This document shows, piece after piece, positions 14,748 to 41,326 of a DNA stretch of 64,000 nt. Where the stretch lies: contig JAPTYO010000008.1 in assembly GCA_036873135.1 (NCBI GenBank), positions 42,652,819-42,716,818 on the forward strand. Direction: 5' to 3'. Made by a program: the position numbers and the translations under genes. This DNA is from Clarkia xantiana subsp. parviflora (lineage: Eukaryota > Streptophyta > Magnoliopsida > Myrtales > Onagraceae). The notes beneath the pieces are model-generated. The model ran no database searches. It had not been told where the DNA came from and saw only the letters and a list, made by a program, of their open reading frames with translations. The stretch's first letter is position 1; each line of letters opens with the position of its first letter.

Positions 14748-16738
14748 GTGAACGATATGGTAAATGAAGATGGAGACATTTTCATAATAAATCCAGTGGG
14801 AGGAGTCAATCCAACCACCCAGATCACTGTTGCTGCAGGTGCAAATCAAGTCGGACCTGATAATCATGTTACTGAACTGATGGATGAAAATCCAATTTTA
14901 CCTCAACTACCTACTGTGCCCAGTGGGAGTGGTACGACACTGTGAAATTAATCTCGGAGATGGAAATCCGAGACCGAGAGGTCGTCCTAGAAAAGTTGTT
15001 GGTGAAAGTTCAAGTAGCGCTTTTGCTCCCAGTGGGAGTATTGCCCCGATAACGAGCATTATTCCTAGTGGGAGCGTAGTTCAAACCCAAGATGGGACTA
15101 TCGAGTTTATGCGCAGTCTAAGGCACCGAACTTCTCCTAAGAAGTATCCCATCGAGAGAGCTGAATTGTTCACCCTCACTTCGGTTGATGAACCGGTAAC
15201 GGTTAAACAAGATATGGATGGACCTCAAGCGAAAGAATGGAGGAAATCAATGGAGGATGAGATCGCCTCTATGAAAGCTAATTCAGTATGGTCTTTAGTT
15301 GATTTGCCTGCAAACCGCAGAGCAATAGGTGTGAAGTGGGTTCTGAAATTGAAACTCACTGCTGATGAAGTTGTCGAGCGATACAAAGCTCGACTCGTTG
15401 CGAAAGGATATACCCAACTTGACGGAGTGAACTTTGATGAGACATACTCACGTACTGTGCGTTACACCACAGTACTGGCCATTTTGGCTTTGGTTGCGAG
15501 CCTCGATCTGGAGCTGCACCAAATGGATATTAAGATTGCATTAATCCACGGTAACCTGGAGGAACAGATCTATATGGAGCAGCCGGAGGATTTCATTACT
15601 CTTGGAAACGAACGTAAAGTTTATAAACTCCAAAGATCTATTTACGGTCTTAAACAGTCATCCCGGCAATGGTACGACAGATTCCACGAGGAAATTGTTG
15701 GAAATGAATAAGTGAATCTTCACGAGGATCCATGCGTGTATACGAAGACTTCCGAGTCTAAACACGTCATCTTGACATTATATGTCGATAACATATTAAT
15801 TGTCGCGAATGATGTGAGTTACATGAATAAGTCAAAGTCCTGGCTTTCATTTGTATTTGAGATGAAAGACATGGGAGAAGCCACGTACATCTTGGGCATT
15901 AATATTGCTAGGGATCGGGCTGCTCGTAAACTATGTCTATCTCAAAAATCCTATATCAAAAAGTTGTTGAAAAGGTTTCGACTACATGATGCCAAACCCG
16001 TGGATACGCCGGTTGTGTTCAGGTGCACGCTGTCGAAGCGTGATGGCCTATAGAACCTGGCTAATCGTGAAAAGATGAAAAGTGAAAAATACTTAAGTAT
16101 GGTTGACAGCTTAATGTATGCCATGAAATGCACTCGTCCAGACATCTGTTACGCGGTGGGCCTAGTAGCACGATTCCAATCAGATCCAGACACTCAACAT
16201 CTAAAGGCTGTGAAACGTCGATACCTGAAAGGTACTACTGACTACGCTCTGTGCTATGAGGGTGGAAAACTAGAATTGTTAAGATTCAGTGATGCCGACC
16301 ATGGTGGCGATCCGGATGATCGTAAGTTCACCTCAGGAGGAGTATTTCTCCTTGCTAAAGCCGCCATTTCATGGATGAGCAAGAAGCAATCATGTGTCGC
16401 GCTGTCAACGATGGAATCCGAATTCGTGGCCCTCTCTAAGAAAGCACAAGAATCAGTCTGGCTTAATAGACTCTTAACTGCATTGCTTGGTGTTAAGGAC
16501 AGGAGTAAACCTGTGAAGGTATACTCTGAAAGTCAAGCAGTTAAGAACCCTAAATAACATAGCAGGACGAAAAGCGTAGATATAAAATATAATTATCCTA
16601 AGAATATGGTTGAGGACAAAGTAATCACATTAGAATACTTGTCTACTAAAAGCATGATGGCAGATCCATTAACTAAACATTTACGCTGGGATGTCTTCGA
16701 AAAGCATGTTAAATGCTGGGACTGCGTAGGGTTTAAAG
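14748..16738 (+). pseudogene. copia-B reverse transcriptase-RNase H
   Basis: Starts with the linker M-V-N-E-D-G-D-I-F-I-I-N-P-V-G-G, then PRPRGRPRK near 14971, RT proper from A-K-E-W-R-K-S-M-E-D-E-I (15229), R-Y-K-A-R-L-V-A-K-G-Y-T (15379), L-H-Q-M-D-I-K and Y-G-L-K-Q-S-S-R-Q-W, and RNase H with D-A-D-H-G-G-D-P-D-D (16295). Lesions: a frameshift near 14930-14945, and stops TAA 15709-15711, TAG 16051-16053 and TAA 16555-16557. The RT catalytic box reads Y-V-D-N instead of Y-V-D-D (near 15781), so the polymerase would be inactive even without the stops. The ending has lost the usual G-L-R-R-V. Confidence 0.9.
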
Positions 16739-17344
16739 TAGCTTGTATCGTGATTACAACTTTTGAAGCTTTTCTAAAAGAATTGTAATTTGAGTTAATG
16801 ATTTTTACGACGTCATGATGTTTAAAATTTCATCGGATATTTACGGTTTATAAACTAGTCGTAGGAGGGATAACCTCGAGAATAAAATAATATCGAATGT
16901 GGGCCAAGCCTCGTCACATAGGCTCGGCCGTCTTGACGGAGAGAAGGATCTCCATTATTCAAGACTGGCTAAGAACTATGGTGGGAAACCTGGTTAAGCA
17001 GAACGATCATTTGGTTTACGGAGTAACACGGTATGATCTAAGTTCTGCAAATCTCCGTTACAAACTTCGTTCGTAATAAAACCACATTTAGGGCTAGATG
17101 ACGAATCTGCGATAGCATATGACATTTCCCACTTCCTGACTAAACTCAGGTTAGGCTATCGACGCGTGTTTCATACTACGCGTGCCATGTTCGACCACGG
17201 GGTTAGGCTCGGTTGTGCTAGATAGAATCCACGAGATACGGATGGGCTCAAACTTCTTCACCTTGAGTGTGTGGCTGATCCCAGATGCTATATGAAGAAG
17301 CATCCAGTGTATCCTCACGGACTCAGATGGAACACCTCGTTTCA
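16739..17344 (+). other. copia-B 3' UTR, truncated
   Basis: Homologous to the copia-A and copia-C 3' UTR through the segment around CTACGCGTGCCATGTTCGAC (near 17180) and the CCTCACGGACTCAG words at 17313-17326. After about 17340 the homology stops, and neither the polypurine tract nor a 3' LTR of copia-B follows. Confidence 0.65.
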
Positions 17345-18429: not shown

Positions 18430-18682
18430 TTTGCCCCCGAGTCAAGCAATGGTTTAACCTTTACTTCACTCTATTTTTGTGGAGTATAGCCCAAGCAAGT
18501 TGCAAAATGTACCTTTGTGGCGTTCCCGGCCTTTATCGAGTGCTCAAGGAACGTCGCGATTTTCCTTGCCCCGTGTTTAAAGGATCTTTAAGACGGTCCC
18601 GACCTTCGTTGTGTGTCCGAGGAACGTCGTGATTTTCCTTTCCCCCTGTTCAAGGAAGCTGGATACACAAAATACTATTGTT
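18430..18682 (-). other. LARD interior, left piece, with polypurine tract
   Basis: The 253 bases between the LARD 3' LTR and the gypsy-1 insertion. On the minus strand the last bases before the LTR are CTCGGGGGCAAA (plus 18430-18441), a typical polypurine tract and nearly identical to that of gypsy-1. The rest contains two GAACGTCG.GATTTTCCTT units (18538-18635) and no gene. Ends at TTGTT (18678-18682), the gypsy-1 target duplication. Confidence 0.75.
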
Positions 18683-19421
18683 TGATGGGTTCCGATGTAA
18701 TCGTTAGCCCCGTTATCAGTCAATGGATGGCGAGTAAGTCCAGTGGGCCTCGTGAAAGGCCTGAGAGGCCCAGAAGCCCAGTATGAAGGGTCCCGACTTT
18801 AGCAGTCCCGATATATGAGCTGAATGCTCCCGACAAGAAGCCTCTGAGTAGGCCCCAATATGCCTTTGAGAAGGCCCCGATGATAAAGCCCCGATGAGGC
18901 TGGACCTGTCTCGTGAGACAAAGGGTCCTGGGTGGTGACCTAGAATGAGATAACTCTGGAGTCCCCGACAGGAGTTGGGACTTGTGATCAGAGGATAAGA
19001 CCGAGAAACCCGCCTACTAGATAGAGTAGTGGGGAGACGGTTAAGATATAGATAAACCTCCCCCGAGATACGCAGGGCGTGCCCGATATACTCGGAGAGT
19101 GGGCAAGATACGCGGAGCGTGGGGCGAGATATACGGAATCCCGAACGAGATATGCGGAATCATGGGTAAAACGGCCAGACACGGTCACAGGTAACTGAGT
19201 AACTTCCCCTCCTATATAAAGGAGGAAGTTACCTCAGAAAACACATTCTCTAATACGAACTTATTTTACTGCTTACCACCCCATTGATCACATACTCATT
19301 TAGGCATCAGAGAGGGATTCTGGGTCACCACCCAGGTCATCCCCTTTTGCAGGATTACGCGGAGCGCAGGAGTTCAAGCTTTCCGTCAAGAACGTAACGG
19401 AGCTTCGACTGTGATCCAACA
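18683..19421 (+). mobile_element. gypsy-1 5' LTR
   Basis: 739 bp, TGATGG...CCAACA. TATA box CCTATATAAAGG at 19211-19222 in the centre of an inverted repeat (19199-19232). Downstream are GGCATCAGAGAGGG (19303-19316) and CCTTTTGCAGG, both shared with the gypsy-2 and LARD LTRs. Transcription is expected to start shortly after the TATA box. Confidence 0.95.
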
Positions 19422-19422
19422 T

Positions 19423-19440
19423 TGGCGCCGTCTGTGGGAA
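19423..19440 (+). other. gypsy-1 primer-binding site
   Basis: TGGCGCCGTCTGTGGGAA starts one base after the LTR. The first ten bases match the complement of the plant tRNA-Asp 3' end; the rest diverges. It marks the plus orientation of gypsy-1. Confidence 0.85.
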
Positions 19441-19475
19441 TCTAACGAAAAGCCAAAATAGTTTCTACCAGATCA

Positions 19476-22184
19476 ATGGCCGGTGGTGGCAAGAAGAAGC
19501 AAGTCCAGGCCGGTAGTTCTCGCCCTGCTGGAACTGTGAATTCCCCGTTGCTGGAATATGCTGCTGAACAAGGTGAGCACCCCGCTGTTTCTCAAACAGG
19601 GGGGCATGGTGATGATGAGGTCTCAGTCCGAGACACGGCAGTGAACAGGCCAGAGATCCCGCGAAGGGAGGTGGATGCTCCCCCAAACCCAGTGGGGTAC
19701 AGAGAAGAAATCCCGCGGAGGGAGGCAGGTTCTTCCTCAAACTCAGAGTTCGCTAAGGCAGTAGCAGATGCTATGCCTATGTTCTTGGCAGCCATGGAGG
19801 CTCTGTTGGACAAGAGAGAAGCTGCCAGGAGGGCAGAGGAGTTGCCTCCACGAGAGGAGTTGCCTCCACCTCCTCCAAGAACGGTTCCAGAAGGACAGGA
19901 GGTTCAGGAGGTTCAGCCTAGGAGTAGGGGTAAGGAACCCGTGCACTCGGAGAAGTTCGTGGTTGATGGTCCCGGACCAGTGCAACATAGGACCATTCCC
20001 CTGAATGGCCCCATCACCCCCGATCAGGTGGTGAAGATTGTCAACATCTGCATGGGTGACCAGAAGCAAATGACATCGGAGCTAAGGGACCGATCCACTC
20101 ACCCTTTCGTTCCACGGCTGCTGGATACTGTCGCCCCGCTAGGGCTAGGTATCCCGACCATCAAGGAGTACGATGGTGAAGGAGACCCGGTTCGCCATGT
20201 TCAGAGGCATGTCCAAGCCTGTATGGGTAGGACCTCGAATGATGACCTTGTGTGTTCACTGTTCCCGATCACCCTGGGAGAAAGGGCCATGACCTGGTTT
20301 TTTAGTCTACCACCGGGAAGGATTACGTGCTGGGCCGACATGCACGATCGCTTCATCAAGCAATATCAAGGGCGTAGGCGTCTCCTGAAGAGCGTGAGGT
20401 CTTTGACCCAGGTGGTGCAGAGATCCGATGAATCGTTGGCATACTACTACCAACGGTTCACTGCTAGTGTTGCGGAGATTGATGAGGAGATATCGGAGGG
20501 AGAGACCATCCGCACTTTCCTTTGGAACCTAACTGCTCCATATGGTTCCAATCTGATGCACAGCGTAGCCGCGAAGGCTGTGTGGAGTATGGAGGCCCTG
20601 CAAGCGAGGGTGAAGCAGCAGATCGACGTGCAGGAGTCGAAGATTGCTGCCGGAGAGCTTGATCCTCCGAAGTCAGGAAGAGGAAAGCCATCGTCCAAGC
20701 TGTTGGATGATCGCAAAGGGAGCGACAAATCGGAGGGAAGTAGGAGTCGTGGTCGCCCCGAGAGAAGGGAGGACAAGCGTCCTCCGAGGAAGGATAACCA
20801 CGAGGGTCGTACTGTTCCCATCAACAGCTCGATGACCTCCGTGCTGGCTGTGATGGATCGGCAGGGTCTCGCCCGATACCCCCCGAGGAAAGAAGGTGAG
20901 TTCCTAGGAGGCCGCTCCGATCGTTACTGTCGGTACCATCGAGCCAATGGTCACGATACGGATAACTGTCGGGAGCTGAAGAAGGAGATAGAGAAGCTGA
21001 TCCAGAAAGGGAAGCTGAAGGAGTTCGTCGGAAGGGGACGGTGCCGATCCCGCTCCAAAAGTCGGTCACGGTCCCGTTCCAAGTCCCGTGATCGATCTCC
21101 AAAGAAGAAGAAGGTTGAGCCGGAAGCCTCCGGTTCTGGTGCCCGTAAGGAGAGGCGGGGGACCATTAATGTCATTCACGGAGGAATGGCGGCGGGAGGT
21201 GACACCTCCGCTTCTCGGGAGAATTATGCCTCTCGCATCTCTGCTGCTGTGGTGCTAGGCAAGAGGTCCCGGTCGTGGACTCTAAAGGAGGAAATGGTGA
21301 TTTCTTTCTCAGCGGAGGATTTGATAGGCGTGGAGAGCCCCCACGATGACGCCTTGGTCGTGACCCTGGACGTGGACGGATTCGAGATGAAACGGATCCT
21401 GATAGACGGAGGGAGCTCCTCCGACATTCTCTTCATGGACGCCCTGGAAGCCATGGGAAAGACGAAGAAGGACCTGACGCAGGTGAACTTCCCGATGGTG
21501 GGATTCTCTGGATCGACTTCCTATCCATTGGGAATGATTACCCTACCGGTGGAGTTTGGTAGTGGCTGGAAGATGGAACAGCGGAACGTGGATTTCGTCG
21601 TGGTAGAATCGGCGGGAATGTATAACGCTATTATCGGGAGGACCACCATCAACCCTCTCATGGCAGTTGCTTCAACCGTCCACCAGAAGATGAAGTTCCC
21701 GACTGACAATGGGGACGGAGAGGTCAAGGGTGACCAGGTGGCGTCGCGAAGGTGCTATGTTAATGCCACCCGAAGGAGAAGAAGGGAAGCCATGGCTGTC
21801 CTGCAGACTGATGCCGATCCTCGAGAGGAGTTTGGGCGTCCTGCCCCCATGGAGGATCTGAAGGAGGTCGAGATTGATGGACCTCGAAGGAAGGTGAAGA
21901 TCGGGTCTGCTTTGTCGGAGGAAAGAGCCCGAGAGTTGATCGAGCTCCTGAAGGAGTTCAAGGAGTTGTTTGCCTGGTCCCCGAGCGATATGCCAGGAAT
22001 CAGCCCCGACGTGATAGTGCACGAGCTGAAGATTGATCCCGCAATAAAGCCTATCGCGCAGAGGAGGCGTCCGATGGGCGCGGATAAAAGGATCGCGATC
22101 CAGCAGGAGGTGGCCAGGTTACTCGACGCTGGATTCATCAAGGAGCTCCGATTCCAGACTTGGGTCGCTAACCAGTCCTGGTGA
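19476..22184 (+). pseudogene. gypsy-1 gag-protease and start of RT
   Basis: A 902-codon frame from ATG 19476, the first ATG after the primer site. N-terminal about 220 residues are low-complexity (E, P and R rich). A retrotransposon gag domain starts around I-K-E-Y-D-G-E-G-D-P (residue about 225) and includes M-T-W-F-F-S-L-P-P-G. The nucleocapsid finger C-R-Y-H-R-A-N-G-H-D-T-D-N-C is at about residue 484, followed by an R-S-R-S-K-S basic tract. The aspartic protease is marked by I-L-I-D-G-G-S-S-S-D-I-L-F at about residue 640. RT begins with E-L-F-A-W-S-P-S-D-M-P-G (about 828). The frame ends prematurely at 22184 because one base is missing in a C run near 22167; the polyprotein continues in the next frame. 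Gag forms the particle, protease cuts the polyprotein. Confidence 0.93.
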
Positions 22185-22753
22185 GGAAGAGTAATGGGAA
22201 GTGGCGGATGTGTGTCGATTTCCGCGACTTGAACAAAGCCTGCCCGAAGGATTGTTATCCGCTCCCGAGGATTGACCAGTTGGTGGATGCCACATCGGGA
22301 CACGAGCTGTTGAGCTTCATGGATGCTTATTCCGGATACAACCAGATCAAGATGGCGAAGGAGGATGCCCCCCATACAGCCTTCTATGCTGATAGTGACG
22401 TCTATCACTACGACGTTATGCCCTTCGGACTGATCAATGCTGGAGCAACTTACCAGAGGATGGTGAACAAGTTGTTCGGGGACATGCTGGGAAAGACCAT
22501 GGAGGCTTATGTGGATGACATGCTGGTGAAGTCCCGACAGGCAGGAGACCATGTCCAAAACCTGGCGGCGGCGTTTGAGCGGATGAAGTTTCATCAGGTT
22601 CATTTGAATCCAGACAAGTGCGCTTTCGGGGTGAACTCGGGGAAATTCCTAGGGTTCATGGTGAGCCAGAGAGGAATCGAGGTGAATCCCGAGAAGCTGC
22701 GGGCAATCAGGAGATGCAGTCTCCGAAGACTCATCGGGAGGTTCAAGTGTTGA
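22181..22753 (+). pseudogene. gypsy-1 reverse transcriptase core
   Basis: Continuation of the polyprotein in another frame. Blocks: W-R-M-C-V-D-F-R-D-L-N-K-A-C-P-K-D, Y-P-L-P-R-I-D, F-M-D-A-Y-S-G-Y-N-Q-I, M-P-F-G-L-I-N-A-G-A-T-Y-Q, and the catalytic Y-V-D-D at about 22509. All the RT catalytic aspartates are present. The frame is lost after L-R-A-I at about 22708 because one G is missing, and the thumb and connection resume in the frame of the next entry. The two breaks around this segment are single-base deletions. Confidence 0.93.
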
Positions 22754-24126
22754 ATGGCCGGTTGGCCGCGATGAATCGATTCATATCCAAGGCGAGTGAC
22801 AGAGCCATGCCATTTTTTGATGTGCTACGGGCCCACAAGAAGTTTGAATGGTCCGACAAGTGCGAGGAGGCATTCCAAGCACTCAAGCAGCACCTCCGTA
22901 CCCTCCCGCCGTTGGCGAAACCGGTTCCAGGCGAGCCGCTTTATCTCTATTTGGCTGTTTCCGATGTTGCTGTTAGCTCTGTTTTAATAAAGATTGTCAA
23001 GGGCAACCAAGTGCCTGTCTATTATGTAAGCAAGGCGTTTGCCAAATCTGAAATGAATTATCCCGCTATTGAGAAGTATCTCTTTGCGTTGATTGTTGCT
23101 GCTCGAAAGCTACGGCCTTACTTCCATGCCCACGAGGTTACGGTGTTAACTAACCAGCCCTTGAAACACTTTTTGAACCGACCGGAGGCGTCGGGGAGAT
23201 TGGTGAAATGGGCCATCGAGCTTACGGAGTTCCGTATTCATTTTGCTCCGAGAACTGCTATTAAGGGCCAGGCATTGGCGGATTTTATAGCTGAGTCTAC
23301 AACACCCGATCTAGAAGAAGCGGGTCTTGTAGAGGGGGCAACCATGAAGGTCTCGATAGCAGAACAGCCAGAACAGCCAAAAGAGGAGAACACTTGGGAG
23401 ATGTACACTGATGGATCATCGAGTGTAGAAGGATCGGTGGCAGGATTTGTATTGATACCGCCCGGTGGAGGCGAGCCCTTGCGATATGCCTTGGCCTTGA
23501 CGTTTAGGGCTACCAACAATGAAGCTGAGTACGAGGCCCTCATCACGGGCCTTAAAATTGCCAAGGGTACGGGAGTCTATCATTTAAAAGTGATGTGTGA
23601 TGCCAGCTTGATCGTGAATCAAGTCCAGGGGAACTATGAAGCCAAGAGCCCGACAATGAGGAAGTATTTGCACGAGGTGCAGACTTTGAAGAGGAGCTTC
23701 AAAAGCTTTGATATTGAGGCAATCCCGAGGGAAGAAAATGCGGAGGCAGACGCCTTAAGCAAGTTTGCTCTGGGAGTGGCCCCCGAGGAGAGTCGGAAGG
23801 TGCACTTTCTGGAAAGAGTGATTATCTCAACCATCGATCCGTCAGAGGTTTGCGCTATTGAAGCAGGATCGGAGGAAGAAGAGAAACCCACCTGGATGAC
23901 CCCGATGGTCACATACCTGACTACGGGGGCACTCCCAGATGATGAAGTGACAGCTGTTAGGTTGCGCCGAATCGCGAGCAACTACGTGATGGTGGACAAC
24001 CAGTTATACAAGAGGGGGCATGTAAAGCCTTTTCTGAAATGTGTGGCGGAGCCTGATACGAATCGGATCCTGAGAGAGCTACACGAGGGAGTCGCGGCCT
24101 GTCATGAAAGGGCCCGATCATCGTGA
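22710..24126 (+). pseudogene. gypsy-1 RNase H and second (archaeal-type) RNase H, integrase zinc finger
   Basis: First the RT thumb (L-N-G-R-L-A-A-M-N-R-F), then the original gypsy RNase H (L-Y-L-Y-L-A-V-S-D; Y-Y-V-S-K-A-F; V-L-T-N-Q-P-L, where other elements have T-D-Q). Next is the second RNase H: M-Y-T-D-G-S-S-S at about 23401 with its first catalytic Asp, N-N-E-A-E-Y-E-A-L, V-M-C-D-A-S and A-D-A-L-S-K, i.e. D, E, D, D all present. This second domain defines the Tat clade. The frame ends at 24126 after C-H-E-R-A-R-S-S, where one base is missing, inside the integrase H-H-C-C finger. Confidence 0.93.
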
Positions 24127-25124
24127 GGAAGGCGTTGAATCTAGGCTACTATTGGCCTTCGATGAACAAGGAAGCGACAGCGATGGTCCAATCCTGTGAT
24201 GCATGCCAGAGGTACGCTCCGAATATCGTGGCTCCCGCCGCGGACTTGATGGCCATCAGAAGTGCTTGGCCCTTCGCGCAGTGGGGCATTGACTTGGTGG
24301 GACCTCTTCCACAAGCGAAAGGTCAGTGCAAGTATTTACTCGTGGCCATCGATTACTTCTCAAAGTGGATAGAGGCTAAGGCGTTGGCCAAGATAACGGG
24401 ACAGCAGATCCTCAAGTTCCTTCAAACTCAGATCGTATCCCGGTATGGGGTTCCTCGAGTGTTGATCAGCGATAATGGCCCTCCGTTCAATGGGGCTCAG
24501 TTGAAGGAGTACCTGGAAGAATTGAACATTGAGCATCGGACAGCTTCCGTCCACCATGCTCAGACCAATGGCCAGGTGGAATCAGCCAACAAGATTGTGA
24601 TGGATGGCTTGAAGAAGAGAGTCTACGCCTTGCAAGGTCATTGGCTGGATGAACTTGAAAACATGCTGTGGGCTGTTAGAACAACACCCAAGCAGTCGAC
24701 AGGGGAGACTCCGTTTGGCCTTGTCTATGGCACGGAAGTAGTTGCCCCCGTGGAGATAGCGGTGGCGTCCCATCGCAGGAGGTATTATGAGCCTCTAACG
24801 AACGAGGAAATGAGACGTCTAGACTTAGACTTGCTCGAGGAGAAAAGGTGGAAGGCTGATGAAGTTCAGGCACGGATGCGTCTGGCAACAGCCCGATTTT
24901 ATAATCGGCGTGTCAAGTCCCGACAATTCTTCGTTGGAGAACTTGTCTGGCGGAGGAACGAGTTCGTTCATCAAGATCGGATAAACAAGCTATCGCCGAA
25001 ATGGGAGGGACCTTACAAGATCGTAGGGATGCCGGCCCCGAATGCGTACAAGCTAGAGGACCTTGATGGCAAGACGTTGAAACATTCCTTCAGTGGCGCA
25101 CACTTGAAGATGTATCATGTTTGA
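24123..25124 (+). pseudogene. gypsy-1 integrase
   Basis: Contains the second half of the zinc finger (C-D-A-C-Q-R-Y near residue 26), then the catalytic core: W-G-I-D-L-V-G-P-L-P (first Asp), L-I-S-D-N-G-P-P-F (second Asp) and Q-T-N-G-Q-V-E-S-A-N (Glu), giving a complete D,D,E triad. The C-terminal part has L-V-W-R-R-N-E-F, P-K-W-E-G-P-Y-K and a final H-L-K-M-Y-H-V; I see no chromodomain, as expected for Tat. The frame is intact for 333 codons, but its start is only the point where the frame changes. Confidence 0.92.
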
Positions 25125-25244
25125 TATTAAGTCGCCGCGAATGGCGCAAATTATCTATCGATAAAGACCCGATGTAAGCCAGCTTTGAGTTGTTAATGAA
25201 TAAAAGAAGTTTCCTTCGATCCTATTACTTTTAGATTGATTCTA

Positions 25245-25900
25245 ACTGTTAGTAAGACGTCCTGAAGGACGCGATAAAAGCCTTTCGAGGTACGATAAAA
25301 GCCTTACGAGGTACAAGTAAGTCGCCTTTATGGCGCGACAAAAAGCCTTTCGAGGTACGGACAAAAGCCCTACGAGGTACAAGTAAGTCGCCTTTATGGC
25401 GCGACAAAAAGACTTTCGAGGTACGGACAAAAGCCCTACGGGGTATGAGTAAGTCGTCTTTATGATGCAACCAAAAGCCTAGGTACGAAAAAGCCCTAAT
25501 GGGTCCGCGTAAGTCGTCTATATGATGCGGCAAAAAGCCTTAAAGGGTACGAAAAAGCCCTAACGGGTCCGCGTAAGTCGTCTATATGATGCGGCAAAAA
25601 GCCTTAAAGGGTACGAAAAAGCCCTTAAGGGGTACGATTAAGTCGTCTGGAATGACGCGATAAAAGCCCTTAAGGGGTACGATTAAGTCGTCTGAATTGG
25701 CGTGGTAAAAGCCTTAAGGGGTGCGAAAAATCATCTTAAGTGATGTATAAAATTGCCTTGAAAGGCATGGATGAGGAACCTTAAGTGGTAAAGTCCCGAG
25801 GAAAATGTCGCGAAAGACATACAAAATTACATTAAGTAACGTGGATGAGAAACCTTAAGTGGTAAAGTCCCGAGTAAAGCATCGGAAGGATGTACGAAGT
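25245..25900 (+). repeat. gypsy-1 tandem repeats after pol
   Basis: About ten degenerate units of roughly 60-65 bp built from GTAAGTCG..TTTATGGCG, CAAAAAGCC and GGTACGAAAAAGCCCT words. The units drift along the array: the left half has CGAGGTAC, the right half AAGGGGTACG. No protein is expected; minus-strand open frames are by-products of the period. Plant Tat elements are known for variable tandem repeats between pol and the 3' LTR. Confidence 0.85.
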
Positions 25901-26086
25901 CATCTTAAGTGGTGCATCGAAACGTTTTAAGTAAAGAATCTAAAGTTGCTTTAAATGGTGTAATGATTATCGAGACCAAAATAGATGGAAGAAATTTCTT
26001 ATAAGGGCTCAAAGGCCTAAAGGTTCCGATACAAAAGATAAGGAGGATACAAGGAGGAAAATTACAAGGACTTAAAGAATAGAGCA

Positions 26087-28707
26087 TTAAGCTTGGTCCT
26101 TGTTGGAAGTTGGGTCCTCAGCAGCTTCGGAGGGAGTAGGATTCGGAGGGGCCTGGGCAGAAGGCTCCGCAGTCCGCGGCATCAGTCTCTTCACTCTCCG
26201 CGGGGAGGTTGAAGTATTTCTCTGCAAAGGGGGCGAGGGTCTCGGACTTCTTAAAGTCGATGGAATCCTCGTATGCCGTGTAAAGTTCCTCGACGACATT
26301 GAATAGAACGTTCTCCACCTCGGTTTTGCAGAACCCCACGGCATCCGCCTTGAAATCATCGGAATTCCGATATTCCTCGCGACCCTGAGCCTTTGCCTCG
26401 CCTTGGCCTCCGCGAGAGCTTCCGCGAGAACGCCCTTCTCGTGGATGAACTGCCTCTTCTCCGCCTCGTTCCGCCGCTGATCCTCCTGGACCATCCTCCG
26501 CTCCCGACACAAGACGGCCTCGTGATCTTGAACCTGCTTGTGCAGGCCCTTAGCCATCTCGTTGAGGAGGGTCCGTTCCTTGGCTATCTTGTCCCTGGCC
26601 GCTACAGCCTCGTCGAGGTCCGCTTGGAGCTTGGCCAAAGCGTCGGGGTCCGACTTGGCTTGTGCCTCCTCCAAAGCACCCTTCAGAGCCAGGATGAAGC
26701 CGAAGCAGCGCTGCTGGTCCGCGGTTTCCTAAGACAAAAGGGAAAAATGATTAAAATTCGATAATCGGAGGCAAGAACAAGGAAGGAAAGAATAAAGTAA
26801 AGGTAAAGTTTTACCTCCATCCGACGGATAGCCATATTGCGGAGCTCCTCCTCGATGTCCTCCTGCGCCAAGGAGATTGGCCGCTTCAAGGCTGGAGGAA
26901 TTGACCCTGCCAGCAGATGCAGGGCCAATTCAGGCTGAAGGTCCCCCTGTTGGAGTGAGACCCCTTGGAGAGACTCGATCGGGTTCCAGGGAACCGTCTC
27001 CTGGTCGGGGGTGAAAACCTTGTAAAGATTCTCATCCACGGGGAGAGGAGGGATGACCCTGGAGGCCTCAGCCGGAGGAGCCACCTCGGTCGGAGGCTCG
27101 GGGGTCGGAGTGCGGAGCTCTGGAGGAGGACTCCGAGACACGTCCTCCACGGTGGGCCTCAGGGTGCTTCGACCTGGCCTTCGGCGGTGAAGCAGGCCAC
27201 CTTCATTTGGCTCCTCGGAGGAAGGGGAAGACTCCAAGTCGGTCACCTGACGGAACTGAGCTTCTGTCGGGGTATCCTCCATCATCGACGCCTGTGGAGT
27301 CGCGGCCCGTGCTGGAGTAGCAGCCTTCCTCGGAGTGAGGGCCTCCGATGGACCTGCGGTTGCGGGACGAATAAAATCAGGAAGAGTATCATGGGGGCAC
27401 CAGATGATTTGGCGCTCTAGATGTTGGTCCTTTCCAAAGAAGTTGTAGTATCCCGCCTTGAGAACGCGGGGGGTTTCTCCTCGAAGGATGTATTTGATTT
27501 CTCGAACCCGCGATTCCCGATCAGCGGGGATAAACTCCTCGGGGACCAGCTTCCTATATTTCTTAATAGCACGACGAACACGCTTACCTTCCTCGGCGGT
27601 AGTGACCCCGAAGGCTTGGTCTATCTCCTCCCTTCTGGCCCGCTTGGCCTCGGTCCGCTCTTCAGTCGGGGGAGCAGCAGAAGAAGAAGTTCCCTTCTTC
27701 AGCGACTTCCGCTTCCGCCTGGAGCCACCCTGGACGGCATCGGTCTCCCCCTGCTTCAACATGAGATGTGTCAACAGAGATGCTTTCTTGGCTGCAAAAA
27801 TGAAAAGACAAAGTGGTTAGAAGTGTTACCCAGATGACCAAATCCTTGGAAACGGAATCGAGGAGCCGGACTCCGATATGAATCAAGTCTTTCTCCACGA
27901 GCTTGTTGGCGTCGAGGGGAATGAAGGATTCCCCCCAATGGTAAAGCTGGACCAGCTGGAGAGTGTTGAGGTCATCCTCGGTGTAGACTTCGAGCTTGGG
28001 GGCAGGGTCCGCCACAACCTCCCATCGGGGCCATGGGACATAGCTGTTTTGGACGAAGAAGTAATACTTCTTCCATCCGCTATTGTCGGACCCTGAATCA
28101 CGAATAAGCACCCGATCCTTATGGAACTTCCAGGTCTCGCTATCCCAGCCGAAACGTGAAAGTTGCTCCTTTGTCCACTTGGGGAGTCGGGGAGAGAAGG
28201 AGCAAACACCAGCCTTATTACACTTCATTCCGTAGAAGGTGCGGAAGAGTAGCAAACTGTACGTCCACCGCTGGCGGAGGCACATAACCTGAAAAGCGTT
28301 CCACACGCGGATGGCATGTGGAGAGAAGGTGCAGGGGTGTGTCTGGTAGAAGTTTCAAATCTCCACCAGGTTCCCGCAAAAAGGGAATCGAATCCCAGCG
28401 TTTATCTGCCCGGTGGAGACGAACACTTCTCCCTCTCGAGGACGCGTGACGATATGCTTCCTCCTGGTGGTTGGCTGAGACTCGTAGGGGAAGTGGGGTT
28501 CCCAGTCCGAGGTAATGCACCCTTCTCGGAGAGCAACCTCGTACGAGGTCTCAGAAATCTCGTTAACAGCAAGCTCAAAGGTAAAAGGGATCCTTGCCCA
28601 AGAACTAGCTTCGTCTAAAAACGGTTACAAACAAGAAAACTTGAGAAAAGAGGAGAAGGTAACATCAGCAAATCATGAAAACAGAGAAGGAAATCCTTAC
28701 CAGACAT
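26087..28707 (-). pseudogene. antisense spliced gene of gypsy-1 (putative plant gypsy-type transposon protein, PF04195-like)
   Basis: A gene on the strand opposite pol. Exon 1 is only 28701-28707 (ATGTCTG|GTAAG). Exon 2 is 28614-27830, after TTTTTAG. Exon 3 is 27791-26815. Exon 4 is 26728-26087. Exon 2 has the Transposase_28-like core: R-Q-R-W-T-Y-S-L-L-L-F-R-T-F-Y-G-M, F-S-P-R, and G-W-K-K-Y-Y-F-F-V followed by P-W-P-R-W. Exon 3 is Pro/Thr/Ser-rich with K/R clusters. Exon 4 is a long coiled coil (L-A-K-L-Q-A-D-L-D-E-A-V-A-A-R-D). Lesions: TGA at 28355-28357, frame changes near 26395 and 26150, and the exon 2-3 junction is one base out of phase. Such antisense ORFs are known in Tat-clade elements; their function is unknown. 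Confidence 0.8.
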
Positions 28708-28872
28708 TGTTAGTGGTTGCTTGGAGAAGATGAAAAAGGATCGGGAGGGTTGAAGGCCTTGGATCACTAGAAGAGCAAAAGAAACTTGGGGAAGAAGCTT
28801 TGGGTTCGAAAATTGCAAAACTTCCAGAAATTGAAACGGTGAAGAAGAAGTGAATAGTGCCAGGGTTTTAGC

Positions 28873-28880
28873 TTTTATAA
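28873..28880 (-). promoter_or_regulatory. TATA box of the antisense gene
   Basis: On the minus strand GCTTATAAAAGC lies about 165 bases upstream of the antisense ATG (28707). It is inside the element, well away from either LTR, so the antisense gene seems to carry its own promoter. Inferred from sequence and spacing only. Confidence 0.55.
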
Positions 28881-29308
28881 GCAAAAGGACAACTGGACGG
28901 ATTCAATATGGACCGTTGAAGACGAAACGATTCAATCTTGATCGTCGAGATTATGGGGACGGTACGGAAGAGACGTTGGTGACGTAATGAGTGCTTTTTC
29001 AGAAAGCAGCAGTCACGCCGGTTTGGGCGTCGTTTCATAATCCCCAGCATTTAATGCTGCAGTAACCGAGGATTCTCCTCGGATTTGGCAATTGCCCTTA
29101 GAGTCTAGTGGGCCCAAGGCAATCATAAGAGAGAAGCTAAGTTATTCAAGGATCATGCTCAAGGCAAAAGCCTCCGATGGCAATATCAAGAGGTATGAAG
29201 ATAAAAGCCTCCGATGGCAGTATCGGGAGGTATGGAAACAAAAGCCTCCGACGATGAGGTCAGGAGGTCTGGAACTGGAAGACACGACGGACTGAAAGTC
29301 CCCCATGT

Positions 29309-29320
29309 CTTGGGGGCAAA
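29309..29320 (+). other. gypsy-1 polypurine tract
   Basis: CTTGGGGGCAAA ends directly at the TG of the 3' LTR. The LARD has CTCGGGGGCAAA at the same place, and gypsy-2 has CTCGGGGGCAAG. Confidence 0.85.
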
Positions 29321-30059
29321 TGATGGGTTCCGATGTAATCGTTAGCCCCGTTAACAGTCAATGGACGACGAGTAAGTCCAGTGGGCCTCGTGAAAGGCCT
29401 GAGAGGCCCAGAAGCCCAGTATGAAGGGTCCCGACTTTAGCAGTCCCGATATATGAGCTGAATGCTCCCGACAAGAAGCCTCTGAGTAGGCCCCGATATG
29501 CCTTTGAGAAGGCCCCGATGATAAAGCCCCGATGAGGCTGGACCTGTCTCGTGAGACAAAGGGTCATGGGTGGTGACCTAGAATGAGATAACTCTGGAGT
29601 CCCCGACAGGAGTTGGGACTTGTGATCAGAGGATAAGACCGAGAAACCCGCCTACTAGATATAGTAGTGGGGAGACGGTTAAGATATAGATAAACCTCCC
29701 CCGAGATACACAGGGCGTGCCCGAGATACTCGGAGAGTGGGCAAGATGCGCGGAGCGTGGGGCGAGATATACGGAATCCCGAACGAGATATGCAGAATCA
29801 TGGGTAAAACGGCCAGGCACGGTCACAGGTAACTGAGTAACTTCCCCTCCTATATAAAGGAGGAAGTTACCTCAGAAAACACATTCTCTAATACGAACTT
29901 AGATTACTGCTTACCACCCCATTGATCACATACTCATTTAGGCATCGGAGAGGGATTCTGGGTCACCACCCAGGTCATCCCCTTTTGCAGGATTACGCGG
30001 AGCCCATGAGTTCAAGCTTTCCGTCAAGAACGTAACGGAGCTTCGACCGTGATCCAACA
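29321..30059 (+). mobile_element. gypsy-1 3' LTR
   Basis: 739 bp, the same length as the 5' copy, with about 17 substitutions and no indels by eye. It keeps the TATA box in the inverted repeat (29837-29870). Followed by the target duplication TTGTT. Confidence 0.95.
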
Positions 30060-30747
30060 TTGTTGATTTAAGTAAATTTATGCTATGTACAAATATTGGA
30101 TAAGGGTAAAAGTGGCACGGGCGTTGGTCTCGTTTTACTTAGCCTTAGGATTATTCCTTTTGGAGGAACCTCCTTTTTAGGCTCTTAGAGCCGGTAGAGC
30201 GCTTTGGAAGCGGTGTTGCGCTCCGTTTGCGAGAGTGCGAGTATGATATTCTAGCTTTGGCCTTCAATGGACATGGCATTTTTCTCCCGTTTGTCGGAGT
30301 GTGGGCATGGTCCTTTAGCCATATCCATGCAATTCACTCTATATAGATGGAGGTGAGAGTGGTTAAAATTCTTCATCTTACCCTTCGTATAAAAGAGTTT
30401 TTATAAATATATTTAGAAGGTTGTTCCCTTCATATATGTTAGAGCGTTACTCCCTTTGTAGGTTAAGGGGTTTCCTGGACAGTGATTTTGTCTTCATGGC
30501 TCAATGCTGAAGCTACCTCCGCGGTATGCACACCTGGCACCTCCACAAGTGGGGTCTCGGCCCTTGTGTTACTCATGCTCTGTGACTCGAGCATATAGAG
30601 TTGTATGTATATGGTTGCCAGCGTAATAGGCATGCTTCACACGCTGGGTGGTTAGCCCTTGCGTTAATTGCGAAACCTGCATGTATGAGATTGTATAAAA
30701 AAAGTTGTCCCTTACAGTGGATGTGTTTGGCGTTTTGGACGCGCGCG

Positions 30748-30787: not shown

Positions 30788-30809
30788 CCCTTGAGGTGAC
30801 TACCTTGGT

Positions 30810-31090
30810 AGCCCATGCATGCGTGCCCCCGTAGTAGACACGTTGGTGTACGTAGAGGGATACTCCTCGTATTGGCTACGCTTGGTAGCTCATATATGCG
30901 TGCCCCCGTAGTGGAAACGTTGTGTATGTAGAGGGATACTCCTCTCGTAATGGCTACTCTTGGTAGGTCATATATGCGCGCCCCCGTAGTGGACACATTG
31001 TTGTACGTAGAGGGATATTCCTCGTAATGGCTACGCTTGGTAGCTCATATATGCGTGCCCCCGTGGTGGACACGTTATTGTATGTAGATG
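30810..31090. repeat. about 75-bp tandem repeat, four copies
   Basis: Each unit carries a GCGTGCCCCCGTAGT word, a GTACGTAGAGGGATA word and GGCTACGCTTGGTAGCTCAT. Four diverged copies in a row inside the LARD. Confidence 0.85.
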
Positions 31091-31377
31091 TTGTTTGGGT
31101 TCCTTAGTGCCATGCCTAGGTCCCTTTGTTTGTATAGATGATATATGCTCTCATGGAGGATATTTGGTTCCAACTTTCATTACCTTAGGTAGTGTTGAGA
31201 TGATTTTATTTGTCCTTCCTTGTAGGAGTATTTTCCATGCTTTATCCATTATAGTCCCCCCTTTGACAAGTAATATCGTCCATGCACGTGTCTTTTGCCC
31301 CCGTAGTAAGCATTTGATCTTTATGCACTTTGGGATGTATCCTTGGGTAGGTTGGTCTTTATGGATTTATATGGTGT

Positions 31378-31736
31378 CATGACGGACCGCTGTTTTTTCT
31401 TGACGGACCGCTGTTTTTTCTTGACGGACCGCTGTTATTTCCTGACGGGCAACTGCTTTTTCCTAACGGGCCGCTGCTTTTTCCTGATGGGCCGCTGTTT
31501 TTTCCTGACAGACCGCTGTTTTTTCCTGACGGTCCGCTGTTTTTTCCTGACGGGCCGTAGTTTTTTCCTGAAGGACCGCTGTTTTTCCTGACGGACAGCT
31601 GTTTTTTTCCTGAAGGACCGCTGTTTTTTCCTGACGGACCGCTTGTTTTTTTCCTGACGGACCGCTGTTTTGTCCTGACGGGCCGCTATTTTTTCCTGAC
31701 GGGTCGCAGTTTTTTCCTGACGGACCGCTGTTTGAT
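31378..31736. repeat. 21-bp minisatellite, about 17 copies
   Basis: Head-to-tail copies of TTTTTCCTGACGGACCGCTG with small changes (GGGCCGCTG, GGTCCGCTG). It is flanked by the two copies of a roughly 240-bp direct duplication. Translation gives K/R/Q-rich or C/F-rich periodic peptides, which I take as by-products. Confidence 0.92.
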
Positions 31737-32167
31737 ACATAGTTGCCTGTTGTAGGTGTTTGGTCCCTCCCCCGACTACCTTGGGTAGTGTTGGGATGGT
31801 TTTTCTTATATCTCCTTTAGAGGTCCTTGTGGTGTTTGTTTATCCACCATAGTTCTTCCTTTAGCAAGTAGTATCATCCATGCACATGTCTTTGCCCCCG
31901 TAGTAAGCATTAGGTCTTTGTGCACTTTAGGACGTACTCCTGGGTAGGTTGGCGTTGATGGCTTAGCATAGTGCGTCGTGGCAGGGTTAATTGTACCTGA
32001 CGTGTTATTGCTCCTCCTCCTGGAGTACTTTTGCTATGTCCTTCGCCCCCCTGGTTTTCCATGGTGGACGGTCTCCTTGTGTTTGATTGCTACTTCATTG
32101 AAGTTTCTTTATTTTCTTTTGAGGTGGGCTGAAGGATGTCCGTTGCTTAATTGGGTGTGTATCCCGC

Positions 32168-32215
32168 TTTGCCCCCCCGAGTTAAGCAATGGCAATAACC
32201 TTTGCTTGACTCTAT
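32168..32215. repeat. internal copy of the LARD polypurine-tract end
   Basis: TTTGCCCCCCCGAGTTAAGC and the bases after it, to CTTGACTCTAT, match 18430-18474, the sequence next to the LARD 3' LTR. The 20 bases before it (TTGGGTGTGTATCCC) resemble the LTR end TTGGGCGTATATCC. It looks like a relic of an older LTR/polypurine junction inside the element. Confidence 0.55.
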
Positions 32216-32439
32216 GATGGTCGGATAGGCGTCCGATTAGGATTTTGATAGTTGTTTGAAAGGTTGGTGGAGGCTATCTCCTTAGTTTGTCCCTTCGACC
32301 ACTGAACTTGCGGTTGTTGGACTTGGAATAAGGAGGATGCCTTCATGTTGTTGGAGTCGCATGCTTGGCTAACCGAGTATTGTTGGATCTAGGGTACGAG
32401 CTTTTGATGACCATTTATAATGTACTGGTTTTCTATATA

Positions 32440-32870
32440 TGTTGAACCTTCTTCCGTGGACATGATAGCTACCTTTGTGATATAGGGGTATGGTTTCCTC
32501 CTTTGAGACATTTGGGCATGATAGCCGTTGTTGAGGTATAGGGGGATGGTATCCTCCTTTGATATATGGACATGATAGCCATTTTTGATGTATAGGGGGG
32601 ATGGTGCCTTCCTTTGATATATGGACGTTATAGCCATTTGATGATGTATAGAGGGGATGGTACCCTCCTTTGACATATATGGACATGTTTGCCATTTAAT
32701 GATGTATAGGGGGAATGGTACCCTCCTTTCATATATATGGACATGATAGCCATTTGATGAAATATGGGTGGATGGTGCCCTCATTTGATATATGGGCATG
32801 ATAGCCCTTTGATGATGTATAGGGGGTGATACCCTCCTTTGATATATATGGGCATGATAGCCACCTGTTG
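32440..32870. repeat. about 58-bp tandem repeat, seven to eight copies
   Basis: Units built from GGACATGATAGCCATTTGAT, GATGTATAGGGGG and TGGTACCCTCCTTTGATATA. Length varies by several bases between copies. Non-coding. Confidence 0.88.
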
Positions 32871-32934
32871 AAGTGCTTACATACTATATCTTGTTTGATG
32901 AGTTGCCCTTTGATTGGGGGATTTATTTCTATAT

Positions 32935-33722
32935 CATGTTGGAAGGGTGGCCCTGTGGGTCTTATGTCCCTTCTCTGTTGGAAGGGTGGCCCTATGGGTC
33001 TTATGTCCCTTTTCTGTTGGAAGAGTGGCCATATGGGTCTTATGTCCCTTTTCGGTTGTAAGGGTTGTCCTTATAGATCTTCCTCTTTCCATATGTAAGG
33101 GTTGTTGATCGCCTTATCATATTTCAGAGTTGTCTTTTTGGATCTTCCCTTTTTCGGTTGGAAGGGTGGCCTTATGGGTCTCATGTCCCTTTTCGGTTGT
33201 AAGGGTTGCCTTTATAGATCTTCCTCTTTCTATATGTAAGGGTTGTCGATCGCCTTATCATATTTCAGAGTTGTCTTTTTGGATCTTCCCCTTTTCGGTT
33301 GGAAGGGTGGCCCTATGGGTCTTATGTCCATTTTCGGTTGTAAGGGTTGTCCTTATAGATCTTCCTCTTTCCATATGTAAGGGTTGTCGATCGCCTTATC
33401 ATATTTTAGAGTTGTCTTTTTGGATCTTCCCCTTTTCGGTTGGATGGGTGGCCCTATGGGTCTTATGTCCCTTTTCGGTTGTAAGGGCTGTCCTTATAGA
33501 TCTTCCTCTTTCCATATGTAAGGGTTGTCGATCGCCTTATCATATTTCAGAGTTGTATTTTTGGATCTTCCCCTTTTCGGTTGGAAGGGTGGCCCTATGG
33601 GTCTTATGCCCCATTTGGTTGTAAGGGTTGTCCTTATAGATATTCCTCTTTCCATATGTAAGGGTTGTCGATCTCCTTATCATATTTCAGAGTTGTCTTT
33701 TTGGATCTTCCCCTTTTCGGCT
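32935..33722. repeat. higher-order tandem repeat: 44-bp units grading into about 143-bp units
   Basis: Begins with three to four 44-bp units (TTGGAAGGGTGGCC, TATGGGTCTTATGTCCCTTT). It then switches to about five units of roughly 143 bp in which that 44-mer is joined to TTGTAAGGGTTGTCCTTATA, CTTCCTCTTTCCATATGTAA and CGCCTTATCATATTTCAGAG. The units are very alike, so the array is young compared with its LARD. Confidence 0.9.
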
Positions 33723-33749
33723 GGAGGATGTCCGTCCACTAGTCGATGC

Positions 33750-37066: not shown

Positions 37067-38839
37067 TTCAGAGATGGAATAAAATCTCTGAGATAAGTTT
37101 TTAAACGAAGAAGGATGAAGTCGGTTAAACGATTTTCCTTCAATACATCTTGAACGAAAAGTCAGGCTAGGCATTCAAATCGAATGACACACTTCAAGAA
37201 GCACAGTTCATAAACATAATGTTAGATTCAATATATTAGACGTTCCCTATGGGATGAAGATAGATGATTCACATATATGTAAAACTGTGTTCCAATGAAA
37301 TCGGTAAGACACGTCGCCATAAAAGCTAAAGAATGATAATGAATTAAATCATATCATCATGCGACATTAATTTGCGCATTAAACACGTATTTGGACCAAG
37401 AGTACGTTAACTGCTCTTAGAAAATACCTGGTTACAGCTTGGGAAAATGGTGTCGTGGTTGAACATGAGACATTACATCACTTGAGGTCGAATTTCCAAT
37501 GCATGGTCAGTTTCAAACTGATATAGTCTTGATAGAAACGGAGCAGGATTACACTGACAATCAGGTCCCACTTACTTCGAGTGGGAGATTTGAACCAACA
37601 ACACAAGTGAATGACATGGTAAATGATAATGGAAACATTTTCATAGTAAATCCAGTGGGAGGAATAAACCCTACTACATAAAATCACTATTTCCGCAGAG
37701 ACGAATCAAGTAGAACCTGATAGTCATATTGTTGAACCAGTAATGTCACAACTACCTTTACTACCCATTGTTCCCAGTGGGAGTGAACCGACCAACTTGG
37801 TTCCAGGTCCAAGTGATCAAGGAATTCATCTCAGAAGTAAAACCCCGAGACCGAGAGGTCGTCCGAGGAAAGTTGTAGGTAAAGGTTAAAACACGGATCT
37901 TATTTCCAGTGGGAGTGATGCTCCGATAAGAGGCATTATTCCGAGTGGGAGAAACGTTCAGACTCAAGATAGGATTAACAAGCCTAGACGAAAGTCAAAG
38001 GCATCAAACTTCTCCCAAGAAGTATCCCATCGAGAAGGTTGAAAAACTCACTCTAACAATTGTTGATGAGCATCGGAAATGCCTCAAGTGGAGAAATAGA
38101 GGAAAACAATAAAAGAGATTGATCGCCTAAATGAAAGCCATTATAGTCTGTAGTTGATTTACCTGCTAACCACAGGGGCACAAGGATACGGTGAGTCCTG
38201 AAAAAAGGCTCACCACTGATGGAACAGGTCGGGCGATACAAAGCCCGACTTATTGCGAAAGGATATACCCAACTTCACGGAGTGGACTTTGACGAAATGA
38301 ACTCATCGACTGTGCGTAAAACCAAGGTTAGGGCCATTTATGGTTCTGGTCGCAGGTCTCAGTTTCGAGCTGCACCGAATGAATGTTAAAGACCACATTC
38401 CTCCACGAAAACCTGGAGGAAGAGATCTATATGGAGCAACCAGAGGGTTTCATTACTCCTGGTAATGAACGTAAAGTTTGTAAACTCCAAAGGTCCATTA
38501 CGGTCTTAAACAATCGTCTCGGCAATGGTACCGCAGATTCAACGAGGAAATCGTAGGAAACGGATTCGTGAATCTTCACGAGGATCAATGTGTGTATTAT
38601 AAGACCTCCGGGTCTAAGTATGTCATCTTAACCTTATACGTGGACGACATACACATTGCCGCAAACGATGTGAGTTTTATGAACAAGTCATCCTGGCTGG
38701 CATCTGTGTTCGAGATGAAAGACAGGGGAGAAGCCACGTACATCTTAGGCACTAAAATTGCTAGAGATCGGGCTACCCGGAAATTATGTCTATCTCGAGA
38801 AGCTTATATCAACAAATTGTTGAAAATATTCAGATTATA
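37067..38839 (+). pseudogene. copia-C RT region, heavily decayed
   Basis: 37067-37600 continues the gag-RT interval interrupted by the LARD. From 37606 the M-V-N-D-N-G-N-I-F-I-V-N-P-V-G-G linker and P-R-P-R-G-R-P-R-K (near 37845) can be read, followed by a scrambled RT with stops and shifts. A clean frame returns at 38568-38840: N-L-H-E-D-Q-C-V-Y, L-T-L-Y-V-D-D (the catalytic aspartates are intact here, unlike copia-B) and E-A-T-Y-I-L-G. It stops at TAA 38838-38840 in R-L-stop-D-A-K-P. Confidence 0.85.
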
Positions 38840-38840
38840 A

Positions 38841-39606
38841 GATGCCAAACCCGTGGATACGCCGGTGGTGTTTGGGTGCGCACAGTCGAAACGTGACGAC
38901 CCAAGAAACTGGCAGAGAGAGAACAGATGAAGGGTGCAGAGTATTTAAGCATGGTCGGTAGTCTCATGTACGCCATGCAATGCACCCGTCCGGACATCTG
39001 TTACGCCGTGGGCCTAGTAGCACGATTCCAATCAGATCCTGGCTATCAAAATTTAAGGCTTTAAAACGAATTATTCGTTATCCGAAAGGTACTGCCGATT
39101 ACGCACTGTGCTATGAGGGCAAGACGTTAGAATTGACCGGTTACAGTGACGCCGACCATGGTGGCGATCCGGATGATCATAAGTCTACCACGGGAGGGGT
39201 CTTTCTCCTTGCTAATGCCGTCATTTCATGGACAAGCAAGAAGCAAACCTGTGTCGCGCAGTCTACGATGGAATCAAAATTCGTTGCTCTCTCCAAAAAC
39301 GCACAGGAAGCTGTCTGGCTGATAAGGCTTCTTACTGCACTGCCTGGTGACAAAGACGTGATTAAACCTGTCGTGGTATACTCTGAGAGTCAGGCAGTTA
39401 TTGCGGCAGTTAAGAATCCAAAGTACCATAGTAGGACTAAATACATTGATGTGAAATACTTTTATGCTAAATTTATGGTAGAAGACAATACAATCACTTT
39501 GAAATACTTTTCCACTGATAACATGGTTGCGGACCCATTAAATAAACCACTACGTAGGGAGATATTCAAAAAGCATGTAAAAATACTTGGATTGCGTAGG
39601 GTTTAA
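38841..39606 (+). pseudogene. copia-C RNase H
   Basis: Connection domain P-D-I-C-Y-A-V-G-L-V-A-R-F (38992-39030), then a frame change near 39050, then an intact run from R-I-I-R-Y-P-K-G through D-A-D-H-G-G-D-P-D-D, S-T-M-E-S-K-F-V-A-L-S, D-V-K-Y-F-Y-A-K and A-D-P-L-N-K-P-L to the natural end G-L-R-R-V at 39606. This is the best-preserved RNase H of the family in the window and was used to judge copia-A and copia-B. Confidence 0.9.
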
Positions 39607-40714: not shown

Positions 40715-40725
40715 CGAGTGGGAGC
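40715..40725 (+). other. copia-C polypurine tract
   Basis: CGAGTGGGAGC directly before the LTR start TGTAAGC, identical to copia-A. Confidence 0.75.
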
Positions 40726-41326
40726 TGTAAGCATATGGTGATGGGCGTCGTAAATGGAATCCCATTATATGTGTATGTTACCTAAGACAATTGGGTAAAT
40801 GTCACATTAGGACATTGGGCCAGACCCGAATCCCAATTGACATGAGATGCCAAAAAATTGGGCCTCCCTATGCATAGTGGCCGACCGAATTTCATAGATG
40901 GATAAAGTGGACTTTTGTCCACATTACTCCTCCTATATATATGTGGTGATAGGGGTTTTATTAGGGTTAATCATAATTCCTCTCTAGTGGTAATTTGAGA
41001 GAAAACCCTTCCCCCATAACCACCACAGTTCGGCAGAGATGCTACCACCACCAAGGGTGTGCCAATTTTCCTTCGAGCAAACACTCCGGAGATCCGTTCC
41101 TTGTCATGAATCGATCTGAGGCTTTGCTGTGGAGAATATACCGCGTAGGGCTTCCTTAACAAGAACCTCTACAGGTGCCGACCAGAGGACCGTGAACTCC
41201 CTGCTGCAAGATTTTGGGACTACGGACTACGTTTGAGGTATGCGCGAATCTTCCGCTGCATAATATCGATTACTAGCATATACCATGTTTATAGTATCCT
41301 TAATGATTACTCCCCGTAATCTAACA
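40726..41326 (+). mobile_element. copia-C 3' LTR
   Basis: 601 bp, TGTAAGCATATGG to TAATCTAACA, with CTCCTATATATATG as TATA region near 40926. Close to copia-A over the full length. The partner 5' LTR is missing. Confidence 0.9.

Follow-up and report, generated by a model that had tools for sequence, protein, structure and literature searches.

Introduction

Antisense open reading frames (ORFs) are a regular feature of the Retand elements among plant retrotransposons. In recently active Retand clusters they are reported from all, and TRP28 (PF04195) from 97% (Vicient 2025, PMC11963269); the same survey counts 104 antisense ORFs in 63 Retand clusters, 57 with TRP28, and describes this domain as predicted to bind DNA, proposing a regulatory role. 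A previous classification gave Transposase_28 for 23% of Retand elements, described the extra ORFs as highly divergent and questioned their functionality (Neumann 2019, PMC6317226). In maize Grande, gene23 is described as having an upstream promoter that drives its transcription, and a nuclear product; the review that summarizes this urges examination of antisense and spliced transcripts (Vicient and Casacuberta 2020, PMC7264820). The role of the antisense PF04195 proteins, which belong to an abundant plant retrotransposon group, stands in these sources as an open question (PMC11963269; PMC7264820).

Two more distant systems are of interest. The antisense HBZ gene of HTLV-1 is spliced, its first coding part is very short, and its product is a nuclear regulator (PMC1459196; PMC10186651). 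VANC of the Arabidopsis VANDAL elements is anti-silencing and acts on the element's own noncoding tandem repeats (PMC10398659).

Among the titles and abstract openings searched, none described introns in antisense genes of the Retand and Grande kind. In the available text of PMC11963269 the words 'intron' and 'coiled' are absent, with 'splic' and 'exon' in the references only, and 'intron' is absent from the available text of PMC7264820. The gene class and its puzzle are thus already published, and intron structure is a possible addition. Here we describe a gene of this kind in a window of 64,000 nucleotides from Clarkia xantiana subsp. parviflora. Judged from its sequence, it is a real but decayed antisense accessory gene, probably spliced.

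The host element

The gene lies within E1, a Ty3/gypsy element with the following features.

18683..30059, plus strand, E1, holding the antisense gene; placed by LTR pair, element ends and target site duplication (TSD)
18683-19421 and 29321-30059, E1 LTRs, starting TGAT and ending AACA
18678-18682 and 30060-30064, 5-bp target duplication TTGTT
19446..25124, plus strand, gag-pol, in ORFs 19446-22184, 22172-22753, 22579-24126 and 24108-25124
25268..25726, tandem array of repeats of about 66 bp, separating pol from the 3′ end of the antisense gene

The E1 insertion is complete and has a PBS-like start of the internal region and a G-rich tract preceding the 3′ LTR. Its LTRs agree at 725 of 742 aligned columns, the 17 differences comprising 9 transitions and 8 transversions; the alignment (18683-19424 with 29321-30062) takes in three bases past each LTR end. 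The figure of 0.9 My that follows from the LTR comparison rests on a rate of 1.3e-8. The gag-pol open frame has three changes, the integrase frame ending at 25124, and these changes mark E1 as decayed, unless one of them is natural.

Pfam domains above cut-off are found on the plus strand in gypsy order (gag, RT, RNase H, integrase), with a second RNase H domain (RVT_3, Pfam) between RNase H and integrase; Ogre has the same layout. A second, archaeal-type RNase H in this place is given as a Retand trait (Neumann 2019, PMC6317226). The sizes of E1 (LTR 739 bp, internal region 9,899 bp, pol to 3′ LTR about 4.2 kb) all fall within the ranges given for Retand, which are 315-1,194 bp, 7,380-12,869 bp and 2,933-6,566 bp respectively (PMC11963269). 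By domain order and sizes, then, E1 appears Retand-like (Tat clade).

A 37-bp array at 29165-29274 lies between the 3′ LTR and the antisense TATA box described below; it is not significantly similar to the 66-bp array of E1 (31 to 175 of 1000 shuffles were as similar, over nine pairings). Just past E1, several tandem arrays are clustered at 30800-33725, their units being 77, 21, 56 and 141 bp long. Elsewhere in the window, 3-2149, 14698-17327 and 37556-41326 are mutual repeats of 73-85% identity, whose translations look copia-like by eye.

Position and ends of the antisense gene

A minus-strand gene occupies about 26.09-28.85 kb, in the part of E1 that follows pol and precedes the 3′ LTR. It had been placed opposite pol by the initial annotation; it lies past the end of the integrase frame (25124) and so is not opposite pol. 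The parts of the gene model are these.

28872..28879, minus strand, TATAAAAG, putative promoter element
28701..28851, minus strand, exon 1, inferred leader plus 7 coding bases (28707-28701)
28615..28700, minus strand, intron 1, 86 nt, phase 1
27830..28614, minus strand, exon 2, PF04195-like core
27792..27829, minus strand, intron 2, proposed and doubtful, 38 nt
26815..27791, minus strand, exon 3, linker of low complexity that holds several basic clusters
26729..26814, minus strand, intron 3, 86 nt, phase 0
26087..26728, minus strand, exon 4, predicted to start as a long helix, with two frame changes after it

The TATA box and start codon claimed at the outset both hold. TATAAAAG, read from 28879, is the sole minus-strand TATA[AT]A in 28708-29320, which spans the interval from the ATG to the 3′ LTR. 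Downstream of this box, the first ATG is that at 28707 (context AACAATGTC). This position puts the putative promoter within E1 yet outside the LTR. From it we guess a transcription start near 28851, in which case what was called a 7-base first exon would be about 150 nt in all, of which 7 bases are coding. Plant polyadenylation signals are loose; AATAAA is absent downstream of the antisense stop (25740-26086), where only TTGTAT/TTTGTA motifs occur, weak evidence either way.

Coding signal

The longest minus-strand open stretches are of 377, 230 and 213 codons. None of 1000 dinucleotide shuffles attained 377 (the longest was 350) and none of 500 contained any T-rich intron, zeros that overstate significance, as these shuffles flatten regional composition. 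For that reason we give more weight to a codon score, computed in 150-base windows from a table of 1901 codons of E1's own gag-pol. By this score the best minus-strand frame is 1 all through exon 2 and 0 all through exon 3. In exon 4 it is frame 1 to about 26400, frame 2 in two windows (26190-26414), and then frame 1 by a small margin; the translation agrees, a protein-like stretch resuming in a different frame. The scores of exon 2 are modest, at -8.8 to +5.9 in windows fully within it, and every frame of the 3′ flank (25740-26114) scores -19.9 to -39.2.

Introns

Introns 1 and 3 are each 86 nt and 51% T, with GC of 0.35 and 0.31, GTAA starts and T-rich ends; exons 2-4 have GC of 0.53-0.59. 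Both would join exons in matching phases (1 and 0). Splice sites were ranked with approximate plant weights. Among the 127 GTs of the region, the donors of intron 1 (28700) and intron 3 (26814) rank 3rd and 2nd, and among the 210 AGs, given by the position of the A, the acceptors 27793, 26730 and 28616 rank 1st, 2nd and 4th. When the minus strand of 25740-28851 was screened for introns (GTAA..AG, 60-160 nt, T at least 0.45, GC at most 0.37), introns 1 and 3 were recovered, along with two extended forms of intron 1 that use other acceptors; the same screen of the plus strand of 25740-28851 gave none.

For intron 2 the acceptor is the region's best, but the donor is weak, ranking 17th of 127, and the length is 38 nt; plant introns are rarely this short, the minimum being about 70 nt. 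Its phases clash, a phase-0 donor facing an acceptor that needs phase 1. Judged by these properties, intron 2 would be either damaged in the E1 copy or misplaced. The consensus splice sites of the initial annotation are accordingly retained for introns 1 and 3, with their high ranks and matching phases, and given up for intron 2. The best donor-like site of the whole region, at 27587 (GAAG/GTAAGCGT), lies unused within exon 3, which calls for caution over the weight given to splice ranks; this site possibly reflects alternative splicing or is a decoy. Of the spliced antisense gene with its own TATA box, the sequence thus supports the coding regions, introns 1 and 3 and the TATA box, and intron 2 falls away.

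Retention of introns in such a gene had been thought puzzling. New LTR-retrotransposon copies derive from sense genomic RNA by reverse transcription. The spliceosome reads one strand only, and sense genomic RNA bears the antisense introns as unspliceable reverse complements, so that reverse transcription copies them without alteration. Given this life cycle, retention of antisense introns is to be expected, and it is sense-strand introns that are of the kind liable to loss. The antisense transcript is also a possible double-stranded RNA hazard, an idea already published (PMC7264820).

Decay of the E1 copy

Exon 2 contains an in-frame TGA at 28357-28355, and exon 4 changes frame near 26390 and again near 26180. 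The initial annotation overlooked this TGA and the two frame changes. Together with the failing intron 2 they imply that the E1 copy makes no full product. The antisense gene of E1 thus appears to be a relic, with nothing kept in working order in this copy.

Predicted protein

With X at the stop, exon 2 matched the PF04195 profile at 19.7 bits (E 0.001). An 85-aa piece, read likewise, scored 23.0 bits (E 9.2e-5), and here the match covers profile positions 4-67 of 69, that is 64 of the 69 and nearly the whole profile, across the in-frame stop. Neither exon 2 nor the 85-aa piece reaches the curated cut-off of PF04195 (Transposase_28), 26.2 bits, and we therefore term the domain PF04195-like only. 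No Pfam family matched any of nine shuffled versions of the 85-aa piece, and none matched the two pieces of exon 2 flanking the stop, given apart, up to E 1. The profile search that had been suggested for the PF04195-like core gave a match only beneath Pfam's cut-off. A predicted structure of exon 2 had pLDDT 37 and was discarded.

Exon 3 encodes five separate basic clusters, which could direct the protein to the nucleus. In the first 112 residues of exon 4, helices are predicted at 3-24 and 28-111 (84 residues), with pLDDT 95. A heptad test of this exon was not significant, 53 and 160 of 500 shuffles being as good when LIVMFY were counted and 100 and 230 of 500 with LIVMAF. The coiled-coil tail first described is likely, with the long helix predicted with confidence and the heptad pattern equalled by 53 of 500 shuffles.

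No homologues of the antisense protein were found among 170 candidates at E up to 0.01 or among 47 candidates at E up to 10. A control search with the integrase gave 385 matches, with many plant names among the best 120 of the 385, which indicates that the protein database includes plant elements; the failure with the antisense protein may be due to divergence or to a short-word filter. No relatives turned up in viral contigs, for which exon 2, integrase and RT served as queries. A PDB sequence search returned NKG2-D in eight rows, the best at E 2.2e-4 and the other seven at E 0.28-0.39, no single stretch passing, and we judged this a chance match.

A second element

Another element of the window, E2, has a minus-strand coding exon in the equivalent place, the stretch from pol to the 3′ LTR.

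45575-56531, E2, TSD CATTC
52510-53965, minus strand, candidate antisense gene of E2, with ATGA (53965-53962) as 4-base coding first exon; last exon 53120-52510

The introns of the E2 model are of 102, 73 and 76 nt, in phases 1, 1 and 0. By splice-site rank, all three of its donors fall outside the top 14 of 252, and two of the three acceptors fall within the top 16 of 159. Support from the codon score is confined to the last exon and a portion of exon 3; exon 3 has an in-frame TAA. TATA[AT]A is absent from the minus strand of 53966-55633, and no Pfam family above cut-off was found in the product. No similarity was found between the E1 and E2 proteins where exons 2 and 3 were compared, with a best E of 1.1 for exon 2 and 0.43 for exon 3; in shuffle tests of the two proteins, 37, 111 and 393 of 500 shuffles attained the score. 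Heptads are in excess over the first 110 residues of the E2 last exon: with LIVMFY counted, 0 and 18 of 500 shuffles were as good, and with LIVMAF 16 and 111 of 500. The E2 antisense gene is a possible one, its model having weaker support than that of E1. The phases of E1 (1, 1 on the acceptor side, 0) match those of E2, with a chance of about 1/27; the match is no more than suggestive, the E2 model having been sought with E1 in mind.

A tandem array is found in E2 as well (51202-51797, unit about 66 bp), between the end of pol and the antisense 3′ end. The units of the E1 (25268-25726) and E2 (51202-51797) arrays look different.

Interpretation and alternatives

We interpret the locus, with a probability of about 0.6 for the account as a whole, as the relic of a Retand-like antisense accessory gene whose product would have regulated the element from the nucleus. 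Its parts differ in strength. That this is the relic of an antisense accessory gene of a Retand-like (Tat clade) element is highly probable, from the codon score, open stretches, splice sites, TATA box with ATG, PF04195 match, basic clusters and helix, and from the agreement of place, orientation and domain with the Retand and Grande genes as published (PMC11963269; PMC7264820). A regulatory role for the protein is tentative, somewhat short of an even chance, and an anti-silencing role in particular is doubtful. Counting against the account are the sub-threshold PF04195 score, the lack of any Pfam match for the two pieces of exon 2 given apart, the lack of homologues found, the failure of intron 2, the unused donor at 27587, the missing AATAAA and the doubt over the functionality of such divergent ORFs (PMC6317226).

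An intact element would have transcribed the gene toward pol, starting at the gene's own promoter immediately internal to the 3′ LTR. The introns would be removed from this antisense transcript only; they would persist because new copies are templated by sense genomic RNA, in which they run backwards. The intact protein would combine a PF04195-like core, basic clusters for possible nuclear targeting and a long helical tail, and may have been a nuclear DNA-binding regulator of the element's own expression, acting most likely against host silencing.

The coding region could be real and less spliced than modeled, the T-rich gaps merely parting independent antisense ORFs. Surveys do list separate antisense ORFs in this place (the 104 in 63 clusters cited above, 57 with TRP28; PMC11963269), and intron 2 fails; the high-ranking sites and matching frames of introns 1 and 3, and an exon 1 that provides the first ATG past the TATA box, make this reading unlikely. 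Slightly less likely still is that the antisense RNA is the real product, pairing with the 3′ part of the genomic RNA and feeding or tuning silencing, with the protein incidental. Any minus-strand transcript here would be complementary to genomic RNA, such a role has been proposed for genes of this type (PMC7264820), and antisense RNAs that restrain Ty1 are cited elsewhere (PMC12786077). However, the exons bear the element's codon signal and their frames switch at the introns, neither of which an RNA function needs. An RNA role and a protein role may also go together.

Most improbable is the capture in reverse of a host gene or other mobile element with its promoter and introns, as private cargo of E1. 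A promoter-like start and introns are what captured genomic DNA would be expected to have, and the protein searches found no relatives; yet the domain marks Retand antisense genes at the equivalent place (PMC11963269), codon use resembles that of E1 gag-pol, and among seven weak inverted pairs none frames the gene. A nested transposon was sought by the same inverted repeat pairs and rejected, none of the seven flanking the antisense gene.

Returning to the relic of an accessory gene, a wider proposal is speculative: Tat-clade antisense genes may generally be multi-exon with a very short coding exon 1, the ORFs of surveys (TRP28, SMC-like) may be exons of one gene, and the product may be a nuclear factor, HBZ- or VANC-like, that recognizes its own element, perhaps by the tandem repeats. 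If this general reading is true, the introns record that the antisense message does not seed new copies. If the genes are spliced, ORF-based surveys split one protein, masking its homology and function. Antisense introns would also offer a built-in test of which RNA species seeds new copies.

Comparison with known systems

The closest described genes are the TRP28 ORFs of Retand, which the E1 gene resembles in place between pol and 3′ LTR, in orientation, in domain and in the tandem arrays of that stretch; these are described as ORFs, whereas the E1 gene has apparent introns, a broken copy and a domain below cut-off (PMC11963269). Grande gene23 is likewise antisense between pol and 3′ LTR, with a promoter upstream of the gene inside the element. 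For gene23, transcription and a nuclear product are reported, in contrast to the TATA box and basic clusters by which the E1 gene is known, and the summary in PMC7264820 makes no mention of introns, which are apparent in the E1 gene. Spliced introns are described in the plant LTR retrotransposons Ogre and EVADE, in the sense transcript, while those of E1 are in an antisense gene (PMC6317226; PMC12786077). HBZ resembles the E1 gene in that a short first coding part supplies the start (four residues in SP1), but belongs to an animal retrovirus, encodes an unrelated protein and uses a 3′ LTR promoter, so that the analogy is one of layout only (PMC1459196; PMC10186651). VANDALs are DNA transposons, unlike E1, and the analogy to VANC is one of role; like them, E1 has a tandem array, adjoining the antisense gene, whose product may hypothetically have bound these repeats (PMC10398659).
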